Below, in pieces: positions 1,159 through 11,014 of a stretch of DNA of 55,452 bases. The DNA lies in the NCBI GenBank assembly GCA_947624645.1, contig CANQLG010000013.1:1-55452 (forward strand), written 5' to 3'. Source of the DNA: Candidatus Gastranaerophilales bacterium. GTDB taxonomy: Bacteria > Cyanobacteriota > Vampirovibrionia > Gastranaerophilales > Gastranaerophilaceae. Position 1 is the stretch's first letter, and the number at the start of each line of letters is the position of its first letter. The notes under the pieces are model-generated. The model saw only the letters and a program-made list of their open reading frames with translations. It was not told where the DNA came from and did not search any database. Made by a program: the position numbers and the translations under genes.

Positions 1159-3987
1159 TTATTTTTTAGAAAATAATTGCAATAAATTTGTAGTTGCTAT
1201 ACCGCTTGATGTTGATGTTTGGTCAGAAATTTTGGGTTTATTATCTTTTTGTAATCTTTGGCTGAGAGGCTTTTTACCCGTTAAAAGCCGCATAAATTTG
1301 AAATATTTGCCTAAAAATCCTTTTCGATTTTCATTTTTTTCATCTATTTCTTCAAGCTCTTTTAGTGATTTTCTGCCAATAGGCATACCGATTGATTTTC
1401 TGGTTAATATTTCTGTTGTGAGTGTATTCGGAATTACAACAGCTGCCATTCCTTTTAATGAACTGTTATATGTTGATCTGAATGTTGCATTAAACCAATG
1501 AATTAACATTGTTTGATAGAATAATGCACTTAATCTCTGTATAATACGTTCATTTGCTTTTTCTTTTGCCCCTTCTTTATTTTCACCGTTTGATTTTAGC
1601 ATTACCATATTATAGTTATCGGCAACAAGAAATGCTGATGTTACTGCTGATGATGCCAATTTTGACATCATCGCCAAATCCGTATTTTTATTACTTGATT
1701 GGGTTACACCGTTGAATGATTTTTCAACTGCCGTATTTACGTATATAAGTAAATCATTTTTCGCTTTATTTAATGCGTCTTTTGCTTTTTTAATATCAGC
1801 TTCGGAAGCAGCATTCTTTATTAATTCAGCTAATGTTGCTTCAGCCTTGCGATATGGCATTGTACGTTTTTCTAACTGTTCCATTGCGTTTACAAATACA
1901 GTTTGACTTATTTTAGAAGATTTTGCCGCTTTCTCTCCGAAAATTTCGGTTACTACTCTATGTATTCCTTTTTCAAATTTAGTCAATTCTATATTCTCAA
2001 CAAGTGCTTTTTGTGCTTTATTTTCTATTGGAGATACAGCCATTTTGAGTAAAGAACTTGTAATCGTAAACGGTAATTTAAGTGCTGAAAATATAAACTT
2101 AAAAGGTTCTGTTACAACATCGACAAAAGGTTTTATCTTAGTTTCTACTTGCATCGGAATTTCTTTTGTCCCTTTTGCTATTGCATCAGTTATTGTTTGT
2201 GAAATATCATCTAACTGCTCTGCATTTACATTAATTTGTTTATTCTTTATTATATTAACAACTTTTTTTGCAACGGCTTCAAATTTGTTTTCAGCTATTG
2301 AAGTACTTTCTGAGCTTATTGCCGTCTTAATAGCTTGAGATATTTGAGAATATTCTTTATCTGTTAATTCTACTCCTGTTGTTTTTAGTTTTTCTGCTAC
2401 TGTATCTATAATTTCAGGTATTTTTGCAGAACTCAATGATGATTTATACATTTTTATAACACCGTCAACAGTTTTACCGTATTTCTGCATTATAAACTCA
2501 TGACCTTTTGCAACTTCTTCACAGCCTGCTTCTTTTAAACTTGTTGTAACCTGCTCAAAATCTTTTTCATTTATTGCAAAATCTTTAAATGCTAAAGGAT
2601 TATATATTTTATCTTTGATTTTATTTCCTATATTTTTTATTCCCTGAACAAGTTTTGAATCTTTTGTAAATGAACTGTTCTTAAGAAAACTCAATATAAA
2701 CCCTGCTGAAACCAAAAATATTATAGCATTTTTAAATGTTTTAAAATTGATTAATGCTTTTTTAGGTTCTTCTTTCTTTTCGGATTCTGTTGGCTTTTTA
2801 TCATCTGATGCTTTAAAACTTGTGAATACTTTGGATTTTTCTGTCGCTTCTTTATAATTAAAGAATGTGTTGATTTGCTGTTTTGTAGGTTCAGTTGGTA
2901 TATTTCCTTTTTGTGTAGTTGTATTATCCGTTTGTTTCGTTGAATTTGCTTTCTTTTGATTGTGAGCTTTAGCTTTTTCTTTTGAAAGGAAGAAAATGGG
3001 CTTTCCTAAACGTTTTCTTGATACTATTTCCGAGAATAATACCGTAGCGGCTGACGTTAATGGGGTAAACCAAGGTATTGTATTTACTTGTTTTGTGAAC
3101 GCTCCAAATGTCAGAAGCTGTATATATGCAGTAATAAATACCCTTGATATTTCTTGTTTCCTTCTTTCTCTTGCTTCTTTTTCGGAAACCTCTTTTTTAT
3201 CTCCGCATAATACTGATAAGTTGTACGCATCATTTGCTAAAAATATTACTGGAACTAAGCCGGAAACTATTCTGTTTAAAGGACGTTCATAAGCTGTATT
3301 GAAATTCCCAGTGTATTTATCAAAAAACTTATTGCTGACTTTATATAAATTCTCTTTAATAAAATCGCTTGCTTCAGCAACTAATTTTTTTGCAGCAGGT
3401 GTATCATCTGTTTTATTTAATTGGTCAAGTAAATATTCTGATGATACTCCTTTTTCTTTTGCAAATTTTTCAATGACATCTTTTGTTTTTTCGAAAATAC
3501 CTTTTAATTGGTCGGTTCTTGCATCAAGCTCATTTAATTTCCTCGGAAATCTTAAAATGGGTTTTTTATAAACTTTTGCAGCCCAATTTTTCACAGGTTC
3601 AATTGGAATTGACTGCATTTTCTTAACTATCCAGCTGGCAGCATATAACGGCAAGTTTATAAACGGGAAAATAACATTTTCTATAAGTGATTGTCCTATT
3701 TTTTTATCACGAATATAAAGAGCTCCTTTGTCTGATGCAAATCTAGAGCTCTTCTTAAATATTTCTGCCGTATTTATTAATTTATCCGACTTTAGTAATA
3801 GTCTTTCGCCAATCTTTCCGTAATGTTGAGAGAACACATTTAATATTTTTTTATCTGCCGAACTTAATAGACTCAAAGGACCCGATTTGAAACTGATTTG
3901 TTGCTTAGAATCATTGTAATTTATATTAGTTTTATTATATCGTGTTCTTTCGGCTATATTTGCAATATTCGGTTTTATAGTATTCAT
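1159..3987 (-). CDS. Large hypothetical membrane protein with an internal duplication
   Basis: A 942-residue protein I do not recognise. It has several scattered hydrophobic segments (about residues 105-122, 241-256, 283-300, 420-436 and 640-660) separated by Lys/Glu-rich stretches. A module at about residues 240-330 (FLANDAYN, then a charged stretch, an aromatic helix and a conserved RKRLGKPI) recurs at about 775-874 (FLVADNYN, then RKSIGMPI), so the protein seems to have grown by an old internal duplication. The N-terminus carries QQISFKSG at about residues 29-36, a short motif seen in similar form in the 579-residue protein at 31.1-32.9 kb. There is no classical signal peptide. The several long open frames on the opposite strand are shadows. 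Confidence 0.75.
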   Translation of the reverse strand: MNTIKPNIANIAERTRYNKTNINYNDSKQQISFKSGPLSLLSSADKKILNVFSQHYGKIGERLLLKSDKLINTAEIFKKSSRFASDKGALYIRDKKIGQSLIENVIFPFINLPLYAASWIVKKMQSIPIEPVKNWAAKVYKKPILRFPRKLNELDARTDQLKGIFEKTKDVIEKFAKEKGVSSEYLLDQLNKTDDTPAAKKLVAEASDFIKENLYKVSNKFFDKYTGNFNTAYERPLNRIVSGLVPVIFLANDAYNLSVLCGDKKEVSEKEARERRKQEISRVFITAYIQLLTFGAFTKQVNTIPWFTPLTSAATVLFSEIVSRKRLGKPIFFLSKEKAKAHNQKKANSTKQTDNTTTQKGNIPTEPTKQQINTFFNYKEATEKSKVFTSFKASDDKKPTESEKKEEPKKALINFKTFKNAIIFLVSAGFILSFLKNSSFTKDSKLVQGIKNIGNKIKDKIYNPLAFKDFAINEKDFEQVTTSLKEAGCEEVAKGHEFIMQKYGKTVDGVIKMYKSSLSSAKIPEIIDTVAEKLKTTGVELTDKEYSQISQAIKTAISSESTSIAENKFEAVAKKVVNIIKNKQINVNAEQLDDISQTITDAIAKGTKEIPMQVETKIKPFVDVVTEPFKFIFSALKLPFTITSSLLKMAVSPIENKAQKALVENIELTKFEKGIHRVVTEIFGEKAAKSSKISQTVFVNAMEQLEKRTMPYRKAEATLAELIKNAASEADIKKAKDALNKAKNDLLIYVNTAVEKSFNGVTQSSNKNTDLAMMSKLASSAVTSAFLVADNYNMVMLKSNGENKEGAKEKANERIIQRLSALFYQTMLIHWFNATFRSTYNSSLKGMAAVVIPNTLTTEILTRKSIGMPIGRKSLKELEEIDEKNENRKGFLGKYFKFMRLLTGKKPLSQRLQKDNKPKISDQTSTSSGIATTNLLQLFSKK

Positions 3988-7070: not shown

Positions 7071-7541
7071 TTATTTAACCATTGTTTTATTAATTGAAGC
7101 TTGATTATTCAAATATTGAACAATAGCGCCTCCTATTTCTTCCGTTGGGTCAAAATATGGAGAATTGGGCATAAGAGTTTGTCTTATTAACATTTTATTT
7201 AACGGTCCAAATGCGTCAGGCACCAATGTCTTTCTGTATATTCCTGCCAGCATTACTTGTACGTTGGGTGAAGTTACATCATTAAACTTTGACAATGTAG
7301 GATACATTTTATCTATGCCTTTTACTCCATTATCCAGCATTTTGTCTAAAATTTGCAGAGCATCAAGAACTTGTTCTTCCGTATTTGCTGTTTTTAAAAA
7401 AGAGTCTAAATATGGAAGAGCTGATTCTTTTTCATTAACTATTGCCTGAGTTCTTTGTTCATCAAAGGTACAATAGTTTCTGTTTATATTCGGCAGGCTT
7501 ACACCTTGTCCTAACTGTGCTATTATCGGAGTAATATTCAT
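7071..7541 (-). CDS. Hypothetical protein, third gene of the riboswitch operon
   Basis: A 156-residue, mostly helical soluble protein. Segments such as EQVLDALQILDKMLDNGVKG and VQVMLAGIYRKTLVPDAFGP look like HEAT/ARM-type helical repeats, but I cannot name a family. No signal peptide or membrane segment is visible. It lies 9 bp after the 499-residue gene on the same strand, so it is the last gene of the operon that begins behind the cobalamin riboswitch candidate. Confidence 0.68.
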   Translation of the reverse strand: MNITPIIAQLGQGVSLPNINRNYCTFDEQRTQAIVNEKESALPYLDSFLKTANTEEQVLDALQILDKMLDNGVKGIDKMYPTLSKFNDVTSPNVQVMLAGIYRKTLVPDAFGPLNKMLIRQTLMPNSPYFDPTEEIGGAIVQYLNNQASINKTMVK

Positions 7542-7550
7542 ATTATATCC

Positions 7551-9050
7551 TTATGTATATACGTATGGGGGACCATTTTTGATTTCCATTAATATATTAT
7601 CGGCAATTTGTTTTAATTCTTCCTTTGATTTAGAGCCTTCTTCAGCTTGTTTTTTAAAATTATCAATAAGCGGTGTAACAGCACTTTTCTTCTTTGATTG
7701 GAAATTGGCTACTTCTACATCTACAAGACGTTTTCTTAAATTTAATTCCGTTTTTGCATTTTCTTTAAGTACAGTTACTTCTTTAATTGCATTCATTCCT
7801 TGTTTGAAAAGATAACCTATTGCACTGGAAATGGTAAAAGCAGTGAAAATATATTTCGTAAATTTATTTTCAGGATTTAATATCCAGTTATAAAGATGAC
7901 CGCGATTTTCATCTATATAACAATAGTATTGAATTTTTTTAGGAATACCGCCAAGTGCTGTGGGCGCATCAGCAAAGATGGTTTTTTTTGATTCTTCTAC
8001 GGCAGCTATTATAGAAGAGGTTTCTTGAGATGAAAGCCCGTATTTTTCAGCTGTTTTTTGTATAAAATCAGGTTTTGCGCATATTGATTTAAAAAGTTCG
8101 GTAAGTCTTGGAATATCTTCTTTTCTTGCATTTTCGCTCATTGAATTAATTGTATCAATGGTTTTTTCTGTAAAACCGTTTGCGTAATCCTGAGAAAGTT
8201 TTGCTGTTTTTTTAATATTAGATATACTATATTTCCCTAAAACTATTGCACCTGCCAATACTCCCAGTATTAAAGCGGTATATTTTATGTTTTTAATTTT
8301 CTTTGATTGATTTTTATCTTTATTTTGGGTATTATTTGTGCCTTTAAATGAGGCAAATTCCGAAAATACATTTGAATGCTGCGATTTATTGAGTGTTTTA
8401 TCAAAATATTTAATACTGTCAGTTAGCATATTATTTACAACATTTAATTTTCCCGAAAATGATTGAGTCTCAACTTGAATAAGATTTTCTTGAAGGTCTT
8501 TTTCAATGTCTGCTGATTGTTTTTTTAACCATATTTCTTTAGCACCGTCAACAAAATTTTTGCAGCCTATTGTTATTCCGCTCATAATAAATATTGCTGC
8601 CGCCCCCATAATATTTCTGAAATTAGGGTCTCGAATAGCTCTATATATTGCAAACTGTGGTTCTTCTTTAATGTTCATATTTACTGCTATATCGGGCAGT
8701 TGCTCAAAACTGTTGGTTGTAAGCAGCGTTTGAGAGGATTTTTTTAAGATTGCACTTAGTGCAAAACATCCGCCTATAAGGATTGATGTGCCTATCAATA
8801 ACGGTTTTATTGCTTTATTTATATTAAAGGAACTTTCTTTTTGTCCTTCTTTAATTGAGGAATTTTGTTTATTATTTTCGTGGATTAATAATGAGTCTTG
8901 AATTTCATCAAACGATACAGGCGTATCATTATTTTTGACATGAGTATTTATAAGCACGCCTTTTAGTGTTGAATTTATTTCAGGGATGTTTTTATTTAAT
9001 GCTTTATTACTTGGTTTAATTATCTTTAGAGGTTCCGGGCTCATTTCCAT
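7551..9050 (-). CDS. Hypothetical membrane protein, second gene of the riboswitch operon
   Basis: A 499-residue protein of unknown family. Four likely membrane helices lie at about residues 83-101 (LLIGTSILIGGCFALSAIL), 148-166, 258-277 (ALILGVLAGAIVLGKY) and 394-411. Between them are long Lys/Gln/Ser-rich, probably helical regions. The start overlaps the 3' end of the upstream gene by 35 bp, which suggests translational coupling. Either ATG at 9050 or 9044 could be used. The third gene follows at once. The layout suggests a membrane partner for the two neighbouring products; function unknown. Confidence 0.72.
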   Translation of the reverse strand: MEMSPEPLKIIKPSNKALNKNIPEINSTLKGVLINTHVKNNDTPVSFDEIQDSLLIHENNKQNSSIKEGQKESSFNINKAIKPLLIGTSILIGGCFALSAILKKSSQTLLTTNSFEQLPDIAVNMNIKEEPQFAIYRAIRDPNFRNIMGAAAIFIMSGITIGCKNFVDGAKEIWLKKQSADIEKDLQENLIQVETQSFSGKLNVVNNMLTDSIKYFDKTLNKSQHSNVFSEFASFKGTNNTQNKDKNQSKKIKNIKYTALILGVLAGAIVLGKYSISNIKKTAKLSQDYANGFTEKTIDTINSMSENARKEDIPRLTELFKSICAKPDFIQKTAEKYGLSSQETSSIIAAVEESKKTIFADAPTALGGIPKKIQYYCYIDENRGHLYNWILNPENKFTKYIFTAFTISSAIGYLFKQGMNAIKEVTVLKENAKTELNLRKRLVDVEVANFQSKKKSAVTPLIDNFKKQAEEGSKSKEELKQIADNILMEIKNGPPYVYT

Positions 9051-9726
9051 TCCGTTTCTTAAGTTTTGAAATTATATTAACAAAATATTTTTTTATCTCT
9101 CGTGATTTAAAAACAGCAAGAGTATCATCATTTTGATAATTTTCCTCATCTATGTTGGTAAAAAAGAACAACAAAAATTTTTTTGCTTTTTGTTTTAAGT
9201 TTTTTAAAATTTTATTATCAATAAAGTTTTTAATTTCTCCTAAAACGGCAGCAAGCTTTTCTGCTGCCTGCATAACAAAATTTTTAATATCTTGCCCGAA
9301 TTGAGCCAGTTTTTCAATAATTTTGGGTAACTGAGAAATAATATTAATAAATGTATTAGCAATAATTTGAACAGTTACACTGATAAATTTAGGTGCAATA
9401 TTATTAATTATTTGAATTGCATTATGAATTCTTTGGGCTAAATTCTGAATACTTTTGTTCAAATTATGTGCAAACTCTATTTGGCGTTCAAAAGCCGATT
9501 TGGCATTTTCCGCACGAGCTTGCTGAGCTTTCATTGCCATACCAGCAGCATAACATTTCATATATGACCATTCATTAGCGTGTGGTTTGGATTTTACTGC
9601 GGTATCTCGCATCCTTGAGACACCACCCATTCCGCCTCCGCTGCATATTGGGCATGCTGAAGGCGGCAGCCCATGCGGGCATAATCCGGCTCTTGTATTT
9701 GATGATGTTGCTATTGGTGTACTCAT
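9016..9726 (-). CDS. Hypothetical Cys-motif protein, first gene of the riboswitch operon
   Basis: A 236-residue protein from the ATG preceded by TAAGGATGGAT. An upstream in-frame start would lie inside the leader hairpin and is rejected. Near the N-terminus is LCPHGLPPSACPICSGGG, a C-x8-C-x2-C arrangement with His that looks like a small zinc or metal knuckle, followed by a Gly-rich linker. The middle (about residues 70-190) is a long amphipathic helical region, and the end is basic. No signal peptide is visible. I do not know the family. A cobalamin riboswitch candidate lies directly upstream, so expression is probably controlled by B12. Confidence 0.7.
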   Translation of the reverse strand: MSTPIATSSNTRAGLCPHGLPPSACPICSGGGMGGVSRMRDTAVKSKPHANEWSYMKCYAAGMAMKAQQARAENAKSAFERQIEFAHNLNKSIQNLAQRIHNAIQIINNIAPKFISVTVQIIANTFINIISQLPKIIEKLAQFGQDIKNFVMQAAEKLAAVLGEIKNFIDNKILKNLKQKAKKFLLFFFTNIDEENYQNDDTLAVFKSREIKKYFVNIISKLKKRNGNEPGTSKDN

Positions 9727-9731
9727 ATCCA

Positions 9732-9753
9732 TCCTTACCGTTAATTGTAAGGA
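9732..9753 (-). promoter_or_regulatory. Hairpin masking the ribosome binding site (expression platform)
   Basis: On the minus strand TCCTTAC pairs perfectly with GTAAGGA around an 8-nt loop. The second arm contains the AAGGA ribosome binding site of the gene starting at 9726. This fits a riboswitch that acts on translation. Confidence 0.65.
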
Positions 9754-9765
9754 CTCCAATATTAA

Positions 9766-9860
9766 TTATTAGTCGGAGTTCGCAACTAATAAATTATGGA
9801 GCATTCCGACTTTTACGGCTGCGATCCAGTTTAGGAGTTTCACCTAATTCCCTCATATTA
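9766..9860 (-). ncRNA. Cobalamin riboswitch, class II (env8-like) candidate
   Basis: The minus-strand leader follows the conserved core of cobalamin riboswitches. It has GAGGGAA, then the P4 hairpin TTAGG-TGAAACT-CCTAA (the GGTGAAA..CC signature), then ATCGCAGCCGTAA (L5/P5), then GTCGGAATGCTCC (P6 and the 3' side of P3). P3 can form from ATGAG and CTCCAT with one bulge. A downstream hairpin ATTAGT/ACTAAT presents TGCGA in its loop, which can pair with TCGCA in L5. That is the kissing loop that closes this riboswitch around its ligand. The compact layout without the peripheral P7-P12 domain resembles the class-II or env8 type. The call rests on my alignment by eye. Confidence 0.78.
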
Positions 9861-9916
9861 ACTTTGCTCTATCTTATCATATTGATAAAATCAAGTAAAC
9901 ATTTGATTAATAAATA

Positions 9917-11014
9917 TTAAATATTGAACCTGAAATGTACTATATCACCATCTTGAATAACATAGTCTTTACCTTCAAGTCTTGTAAGTCCCTTATCTCT
10001 TGCAGCAGCATATGACCCTGCGCTTACAAAATCTTTATAGCTTGTAACTTCGGCTCTTATGAATCCCTTTTCAAAATCGGTATGAATTACGCCCGCAGCT
10101 TTGGGCGCTTTTGAACCTGCTTTTACAGTCCATGCTCTTACTTCTTTTTCGCCTGCCGTAATAAATGTTGTTAGGTTTAAAAGCTTATATACGGATTTTA
10201 TCATTCTTTCTATACCCGAATTTTCCACTCCCAAATCAGACAGATAAGCTTTAGCTTCTTCTTCGGATAAATCTACTAATTCTGATTCAATTTTTGCTGA
10301 AATTACAACAACATCCGCTCTGTGATTTTTTGCATATTCTTTTACTTTATCTACATATGCATTTCCATTTGCTAAATCTGCTTCACTGACATTTGCCGCA
10401 TATATTACCGGTTTTATACACATTAACTGTGAATTTCGTGCAACCTCAAGCTCTTCTTCTTGAAAATGTTCTTCTATATTAATAAATGAAGCATCAGACA
10501 ATAAATCATTTAGCTTGGTTAGTACTTTATGCTCTAAAACAGCTTGTTTATCTCCGCTTTTTACCTGTTTTGTTAATCTTTCCAATCTCTTTTCTATTGA
10601 AGCCATATCAGAAAGTGCAAGTTCAGTATTAATTGTTTCTATATCGTCAAGAGGGTTGATTTTCCCCGATACATGGATTGTATTATCATCATCGAAACAT
10701 CTAACTACTTGTATAATAGCATCCACTTCTCTTATATTATGCAAAAATTGGTTGCCAAGCCCTTCTCCTTTACTTGCACCTTTAACTAACCCAGCAATAT
10801 CAACAAATTCTATGGCTGTCGGTATTACAACATTCGTTTTTACCAAATCTTTTAATATATATAGTCTTTCATCTGGTACATTTACCACGCCTACGTTGGG
10901 TTCTATCGTACAAAACGGATAATTTTCACTCTGGGCATTTTTTGATGATGTGAGTGCATTAAACAAGGTTGATTTTCCTACATTCGGCAAACCTACAATT
11001 CCTGCTCGTAACAT
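9917..11014 (-). CDS. ychF: Redox-regulated ribosome-associated ATPase YchF
   Basis: YchF (EngD/Ola1) is a universally conserved Obg-family P-loop protein that prefers ATP. The protein is 365 residues from the ATG preceded by GAAAGGAAATATT; an upstream in-frame TTG is rejected. The motifs are G1 GLPNVGKST near the N-terminus, G3 DIAGLVKGAS, and NVSE in place of the usual NKxD, which is the hallmark of ATP specificity. The C-terminal TGS domain is present (about residues 280-365, ending YVIQDGDIVHFRFN). Confidence 0.97.
   Translation of the reverse strand: MLRAGIVGLPNVGKSTLFNALTSSKNAQSENYPFCTIEPNVGVVNVPDERLYILKDLVKTNVVIPTAIEFVDIAGLVKGASKGEGLGNQFLHNIREVDAIIQVVRCFDDDNTIHVSGKINPLDDIETINTELALSDMASIEKRLERLTKQVKSGDKQAVLEHKVLTKLNDLLSDASFINIEEHFQEEELEVARNSQLMCIKPVIYAANVSEADLANGNAYVDKVKEYAKNHRADVVVISAKIESELVDLSEEEAKAYLSDLGVENSGIERMIKSVYKLLNLTTFITAGEKEVRAWTVKAGSKAPKAAGVIHTDFEKGFIRAEVTSYKDFVSAGSYAAARDKGLTRLEGKDYVIQDGDIVHFRFNI

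Follow-up and report, generated by a model that had tools for sequence, protein, structure and literature searches.

A cobalamin riboswitch precedes a conserved, uncharacterised three-gene operon in the Gastranaerophilales

The riboswitch leader and the genes behind it

The window, as we call the stretch of DNA analysed here, comprises one contig of 55 kb (55,452 nucleotides) from a 2.1 Mb Gastranaerophilales genome. Scanning it with cmscan against the whole of Rfam returned two matches, a tRNA and a cobalamin riboswitch of the AdoCbl-II family (RF01689), the latter lying upstream of three minus-strand genes that we refer to as A, B and C. Read 5′ to 3′ along this strand, the aptamer (9864–9791) is followed by the P13 hairpin (9790–9768), a hairpin containing the Shine-Dalgarno (SD) sequence (9754–9731) and the ATG of gene A at 9726. 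The features of the locus are as follows:

9791..9864, minus strand: AdoCbl-II (class-II) cobalamin aptamer with P1, P3, P4, P5 and P6 (RF01689, 42.4 bits; covariation across 26 leaders)
9820..9824, minus strand: L5 side of the kissing pair, TCGCA, with the core TCG at 9824–9822 (sequence reading; compensating core changes)
9768..9790, minus strand: P13 hairpin, the loop of which, TGCGA (9784–9780), is the other kissing side (81% of cells paired; both-sided changes in 4 of 6 pairs)
9731..9754, minus strand: hairpin burying the SD of gene A, GTCCTTAC (9754–9747) / GTAAGGAT (9738–9731) (fold; 41 of 56 leaders)
9016..9726, minus strand: gene A, 236 amino acids, helical, invariant CPHG...CPxC motif, no known family (profile searches, alignment)
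7551..9050, minus strand: gene B, 499 amino acids, membrane protein of no known family for which three transmembrane helices (probably four) are predicted; its start overlaps with the end of A
7071..7541, minus strand: gene C, 156 amino acids, predicted armadillo/HEAT-like helical solenoid, no known family (structure model)

The AdoCbl-II match exceeds the gathering score of 36.5, has an E-value of 7.4e-7 across 4227 families and covers the model over its full length (positions 1–81). No other site in the window's own genome passes the cut-off; the runner-up, at 16.2 bits on contig C8, was dismissed as a chance match rather than a second riboswitch. The class-I model RF00174 reached 18.7 bits against a cut-off of 31.5 in the same genome, which places the element outside class I. 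The first-pass annotation had read this leader as a class-II-like cobalamin riboswitch, and both the Rfam comparison and the covariation described below bear this out, except that the aptamer starts at 9864 and not at 9860. All of the leader elements that it had named are present in the sequence, namely P4 (TTAGG/CCTAA), CGCAGCCGTAA, GTCGGAATGCTCC, the L5/L13 complement and the SD hairpin. Hence, the riboswitch before A-B-C is real, and the known AdoCbl-II class gains a good new member with it.

Since the folding energy of the window leader alone is unremarkable (z −1.8), the case for its structure rests on the covariance model and on covariation. We compared 26 leaders of close relatives, using slid partners and 500 shuffles as controls. 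The named structure is paired in 83.7% of cells, compared with at most 47% when the partners are slid, and both-sided changes occur in 20 of its 37 pairs, a number reached in none of the 500 shuffles. In the kissing core, 70.5% of cells are paired and changes are seen on both sides: the inner pair varies between G-C, A-U and G-U and the middle pair between C-G and G-C, with L5 and L13 changing together from C-G to G-C in one sequence and from G-C to A-U in four, while the outer pair is weak (8 of 26 sequences). The kissing pair had been proposed to comprise 5 bp. Its two complementary sides, TCGCA and TGCGA, are there; as they partly overlap P5, 3 bp (TCG/CGA) is the safe count.

The proposed ribosome-binding-site hairpin also holds. 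Its stem, GTCCTTAC-AATTAACG-GTAAGGAT at 9754–9731 on the minus strand, encloses the SD of gene A, which is thereby buried 4 nt ahead of the ATG. Of 56 leaders in front of gene A, 41 contain a hairpin that takes in the SD and ends no more than 8 nt from the start codon; in 200 shuffled controls in which the SD end was kept fixed, the average was 5 such leaders and the highest count 11. The stem varies by clade (CCTTAC/GTAAGG, TCCTCT/AGAGGA) with the SD still buried. In most relatives a U-run follows the stem, making it terminator-like; this run is lost in the window copy, and a terminator scan of the window leader found none. The energy fold of the window leader contains a competing helix between the 3′ strand of P3 (CUCC) and GGAG at 9757–9754, for which reason we can only infer the relay from ligand state to SD hairpin.

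The start of B lies inside the end of A and 9 bases separate B from C in this single minus-strand row, from which it follows that the three genes are probably expressed as one transcript. Neither Pfam nor NCBIfam holds a family matching A, B or C in profile searches, sequence comparison with the PDB gave no convincing relative, and none of the three belongs to a TonB receptor, FecCD permease, ABC ATPase or binding-protein family. This agrees with the earlier statement that the genes at 7071–9726 show no known B12 function. Weak coiled-coil and helical matches in Pfam, NCBIfam, PHROGs and PDB sequences, for example to tape-measure proteins and apolipophorin, were rejected.

Protein A carries an invariant C-P-H-G ... 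C-P-x-C followed by glycines, a motif that, judged by its sequence, would be typical of a metal site. Hydrophobic segments are predicted in B at residues 78–105, 144–168 and 253–279, with another at about 398–418 by eye, alongside long conserved helices; its AlphaFold model is poor (pLDDT 53). The model of C is of fair confidence (pLDDT 80.6) and describes a small armadillo/HEAT-like solenoid. Foldseek returned a weak structural match at best (E 0.018), and VIA-align gave Z 12.8 over 139 aligned residues with an rmsd of 3.4, which is within the range reachable by the common arrangement of helical repeats. The initial guess of a membrane or metal-related system is therefore plausible for B, with its predicted membrane helices, and for A, with its metal-type motif. 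As a separate observation, large hydrophobic proteins without known family that carry a short SFKS/FKG-like motif recur in these genomes, one of them being encoded in the window at 1159–3987 on the minus strand and others at loci L175 and L157; B contains FASFKG, and the motif may be lineage-specific.

Conservation of the link between riboswitch and operon

Among a first sample of 98 relatives, 74 contain an AdoCbl-II match and 62 protein A. We inspected the surroundings of 97 riboswitch sites and found gene A to be the first gene at 56 of them, nearly always followed by B and usually by C. Conversely, a cobalamin riboswitch lies directly upstream of 58 of the 63 A matches. This count includes G063 (L140:758–950), where an insertion in P4 causes Rfam to miss the switch and a custom model made from relatives yields 42.9 bits, and G066, the operon leader of which matches RF00174 with 51.6 bits. 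The five A matches without a switch upstream comprise a second copy in G028 at a contig edge, a very weak relative in G076, and the operons of G008, G015 and G021 (L138, L137 and L139), three members of the window's genus in which the operon directly follows ychF with no recognisable riboswitch and B12 control has apparently been lost.

The same link is seen in a wider sample of 289 genomes of the class Vampirovibrionia. Protein B occurs in 181 of these, every one within the order, and 180 of them possess a cobalamin riboswitch, G021 being the sole exception. Among genomes with a listed B, 98 of the 113 listed riboswitch sites are located 661–878 bp upstream of it. In another family of the order the operon stands behind a class-I riboswitch (RF00174) that scores above cut-off, with 38.7–51.6 bits in G066, G078, G079 and G080 (L141:5108–5279 on the minus strand, L134:4913–5083, L073:5694–5829 on the minus strand and L135:577–747 on the minus strand). 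The riboswitch class differs in that family and the target operon is unchanged. A-B-C is thus a conserved uncharacterised B12-regulated unit across the whole order. The B12-linked system anticipated from the window alone is in this respect well supported, while its function is something that we infer.

Other first genes behind the riboswitch in the order include BtuB, then followed by BtuC-, BtuD- and BtuF-like genes, NrdD together with NrdG, MetE, and CobT, the last named by sequence reading. Uptake systems and B12-independent routes are textbook targets of cobalamin riboswitches. These neighbours indicate that the RNA class reports B12 shortage in these bacteria, which in turn supports the OFF direction suggested by the SD hairpin.

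Several further targets were noted in passing. In two genomes of a distant family (G096 and G122; L062 and L162), AdoCbl-II precedes genes that by sequence reading appear to belong to the methylcitrate cycle and to acyl-CoA/valine catabolism, a B12-independent propionate route. In sister families (G083, G085, G090, G095, G102, G120 and G126; for example L108:5914–8346, L119:5914–8443 and L049:6340–8865), the first gene behind AdoCbl-II encodes c26, a protein of about 580 amino acids with repeated amphipathic stretches, often followed by c32, of about 245 amino acids with a glycine run. Like A-B-C, c26/c32 is uncharacterised and stands first behind the same riboswitch class, and it is possibly another B12-linked unit. 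A short helical stretch of c32 resembles A (hhalign probability 94% over 38 columns), but c32 lacks the CPHG...CPxC motif. We rejected c26 as a distant form of B, the two having no similarity. Finally, c57, an uncharacterised protein of 94–95 amino acids, is encoded first behind a second AdoCbl-II riboswitch at L122 and L063 (G052:C7 and G003:C94).

Distribution of the operon relative to cobalamin genes

A set of 53 genomes, of which 36 carry the operon and 17 do not, was scored for genes of cobalamin synthesis, import and use; these are assemblies, some of them incomplete, so that absences may be gaps. The importer survey covered BtuB and FecCD (BtuC-type) permeases. PF02310 was discarded as a marker of B12 use because it is non-specific and catches radical-SAM proteins whether or not a genome carries the operon. 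CobS is absent from all 53 genomes, and with it the usual last step of cobalamin synthesis, and BtuB and the FecCD permease are confined to the same 13.

The ribonucleotide reductase NrdJ requires adenosylcobalamin. Outside the window's genus it is present in all 24 operon-bearing genomes versus 4 of 11 operon-less ones (Fisher p 4.9e-5, a value that ignores phylogeny, the joint absence of NrdJ and operon being concentrated in few genera). In G049 the NrdJ match is broken into two parts, as an insertion would produce. About 20 species contain a B12-dependent enzyme and neither CobS nor BtuB/BtuC, and of their cobalamin-switched loci the operon is the most constant. Because A-B-C recurs mostly in B12-requiring species without recognised synthesis or import, it is a candidate for B12 acquisition, and whether it is a lineage-specific system of this kind is, on the basis of its distribution, an even call in our estimation.

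A comparison with the known importer points in the same direction. G336 (L154, G336:C21) possesses NrdJ but not A-B-C and carries BtuBCDF behind the switch, whereas its genus mates have A-B-C and no BtuB. The BtuB of G336 shares 84% identity with a BtuB from another family, a sequence likeness that suggests recent horizontal transfer. G058, G065, G067 and G074 likewise have no gene A, and in them too the switch precedes BtuBCDF. It looks as if one system stands in for the other. G241, G246 and G321 depart from this pattern, NrdJ being present there with both A-B-C and BtuB/BtuC absent.

Ten genomes contain both systems, which allows for a complementary rather than an equivalent role. Their retention of A-B-C alongside BtuBCDF also fits the main rival to acquisition, according to which A-B-C is no importer and deals with cobalamin, or with a metal, in the cell interior or at the inner membrane in times of cobalamin scarcity, be it in storage, escort, remodelling or in metal homeostasis via the CxH/CxxC of A. 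The invariant motif of A, and the fact that neither family nor fold points to a transporter for any of the three proteins, are as expected from such handling. It would, however, leave the cobalamin source of the B12-requiring genomes without CobS and BtuB/BtuC unexplained, and G336 and the other genomes just described resemble cases of replacement by BtuBCDF. A need for cobalt in particular is unlikely given that CobS is missing. Overall, we consider intracellular handling rather unlikely.

NrdDG and MetE, which are found under the same riboswitch, make B12-independent substitutes an ordinary type of target, and A-B-C might be another substitute of this kind, produced when cobalamin runs out to replace a B12-dependent function. 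The co-occurrence of the operon with NrdJ would agree with this. The three proteins, however, resemble a membrane protein, a small helical protein with a metal motif and a solenoid rather than enzymes, and no NrdJ was found in the sampled genomes of the window's genus, which retain the operon nonetheless. This makes a substitute improbable.

In the window's own genome, our search found no NrdJ, MetH cap domain, BtuB, FecCD/BtuC or CobS. An 834-amino-acid frame considered as MetH was rejected, as its sequence looks like a fused radical-SAM protein. The sole B12-type candidate found in this genome is a radical-SAM protein on contig C14, akin to B12-dependent methyltransferase families and below their cut-offs. 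The scarcity of B12 genes, a scan that detected no promoter-like site at 9700–10050 and the three congeneric operons that follow ychF without a recognisable riboswitch would suit a switch that is a relic or weakly used in this genome, with the operon read mainly through from ychF; against this, the window copy is intact, scores highly and differs from its congeners by compensatory changes, and the radical-SAM candidate is present, so that we regard a relic as the least probable of these explanations.

A proposed role in cobalamin acquisition and its relation to known systems

B12 regulation of the A-B-C operon is nearly certain. Cobalamin is the presumable ligand, and an OFF switch is suggested by the SD-sequestering architecture together with the other genes under the same control. 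Following the acquisition reading, cobalamin would bind the aptamer and stabilise the kissing pair between L5 and L13. This would favour the hairpin that buries the SD, and that in most relatives may act as a terminator as well, so that gene A and hence A-B-C would be off as long as cobalamin suffices. When it becomes scarce, A, B and C would be produced. By their predicted features, B would reside in the inner membrane, A would be cytoplasmic with a CxH/CxxC metal-type site and C could serve as a solenoid adaptor, the three together taking the part played by BtuBCDF elsewhere in the order. What speaks against acquisition, besides G241, G246 and G321, the lack of a confirmed B12 enzyme in the window's own genome and the three congeners that have the operon without a recognisable switch, is that A, B and C are unlike transporters and include no outer-membrane channel. 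The more specific proposal, in which A-B-C would represent a novel kind of importer with no relation to BtuBCDF or the other B12 transporters known, and would be the main or only entry of B12 across the order, is a tentative one.

The Gastranaerophilales are common gut relatives of the cyanobacteria, and competition for B12 matters in the gut. Most sampled species of the order outside the window's genus have a B12-dependent ribonucleotide reductase and lack CobS as well as BtuB/BtuC. A-B-C has no known family and is the most constant target of their B12 switch; it therefore suggests itself for the import step that is missing, and a specific three-gene set is now defined for laboratory tests of B12 acquisition. 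A limited literature search yielded no paper on riboswitches, B12 uptake or the link between switch and operon in this order.

On the RNA level, the window copy resembles RF01689 in its full-length match to the covariance model, its compact P6 without the class-I extension and its L5-L13 kissing pair. The AdoCbl-II class was first described from marine samples (PMC2864571). In contrast to those, the window copy occurs in gut Gastranaerophilales, precedes genes without known function and hides its SD in an additional hairpin that follows P13.

On the protein level, BtuBCDF is another target of this riboswitch class within the order, and its distribution suggests that it and A-B-C can take each other's place. 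In terms of protein family, A, B and C have nothing in common with TonB receptors, FecCD permeases, ABC ATPases or binding proteins. The closest precedent is provided by Bacteroides, where riboswitch-linked unknown proteins were later found to bind B12 (PMC8941943). BtuG and BtuH, encoded by unknown genes in B12-riboswitch operons of these gut bacteria, have since been shown to serve B12 uptake (PMC8941943, PMC6143338). A-B-C shares with them that uncharacterised genes sit in a B12-riboswitch operon of a gut bacterium; BtuG and BtuH, however, belong to BtuB loci and work on the cell surface, whereas A-B-C stands alone and is apparently a cytoplasmic and inner-membrane system.
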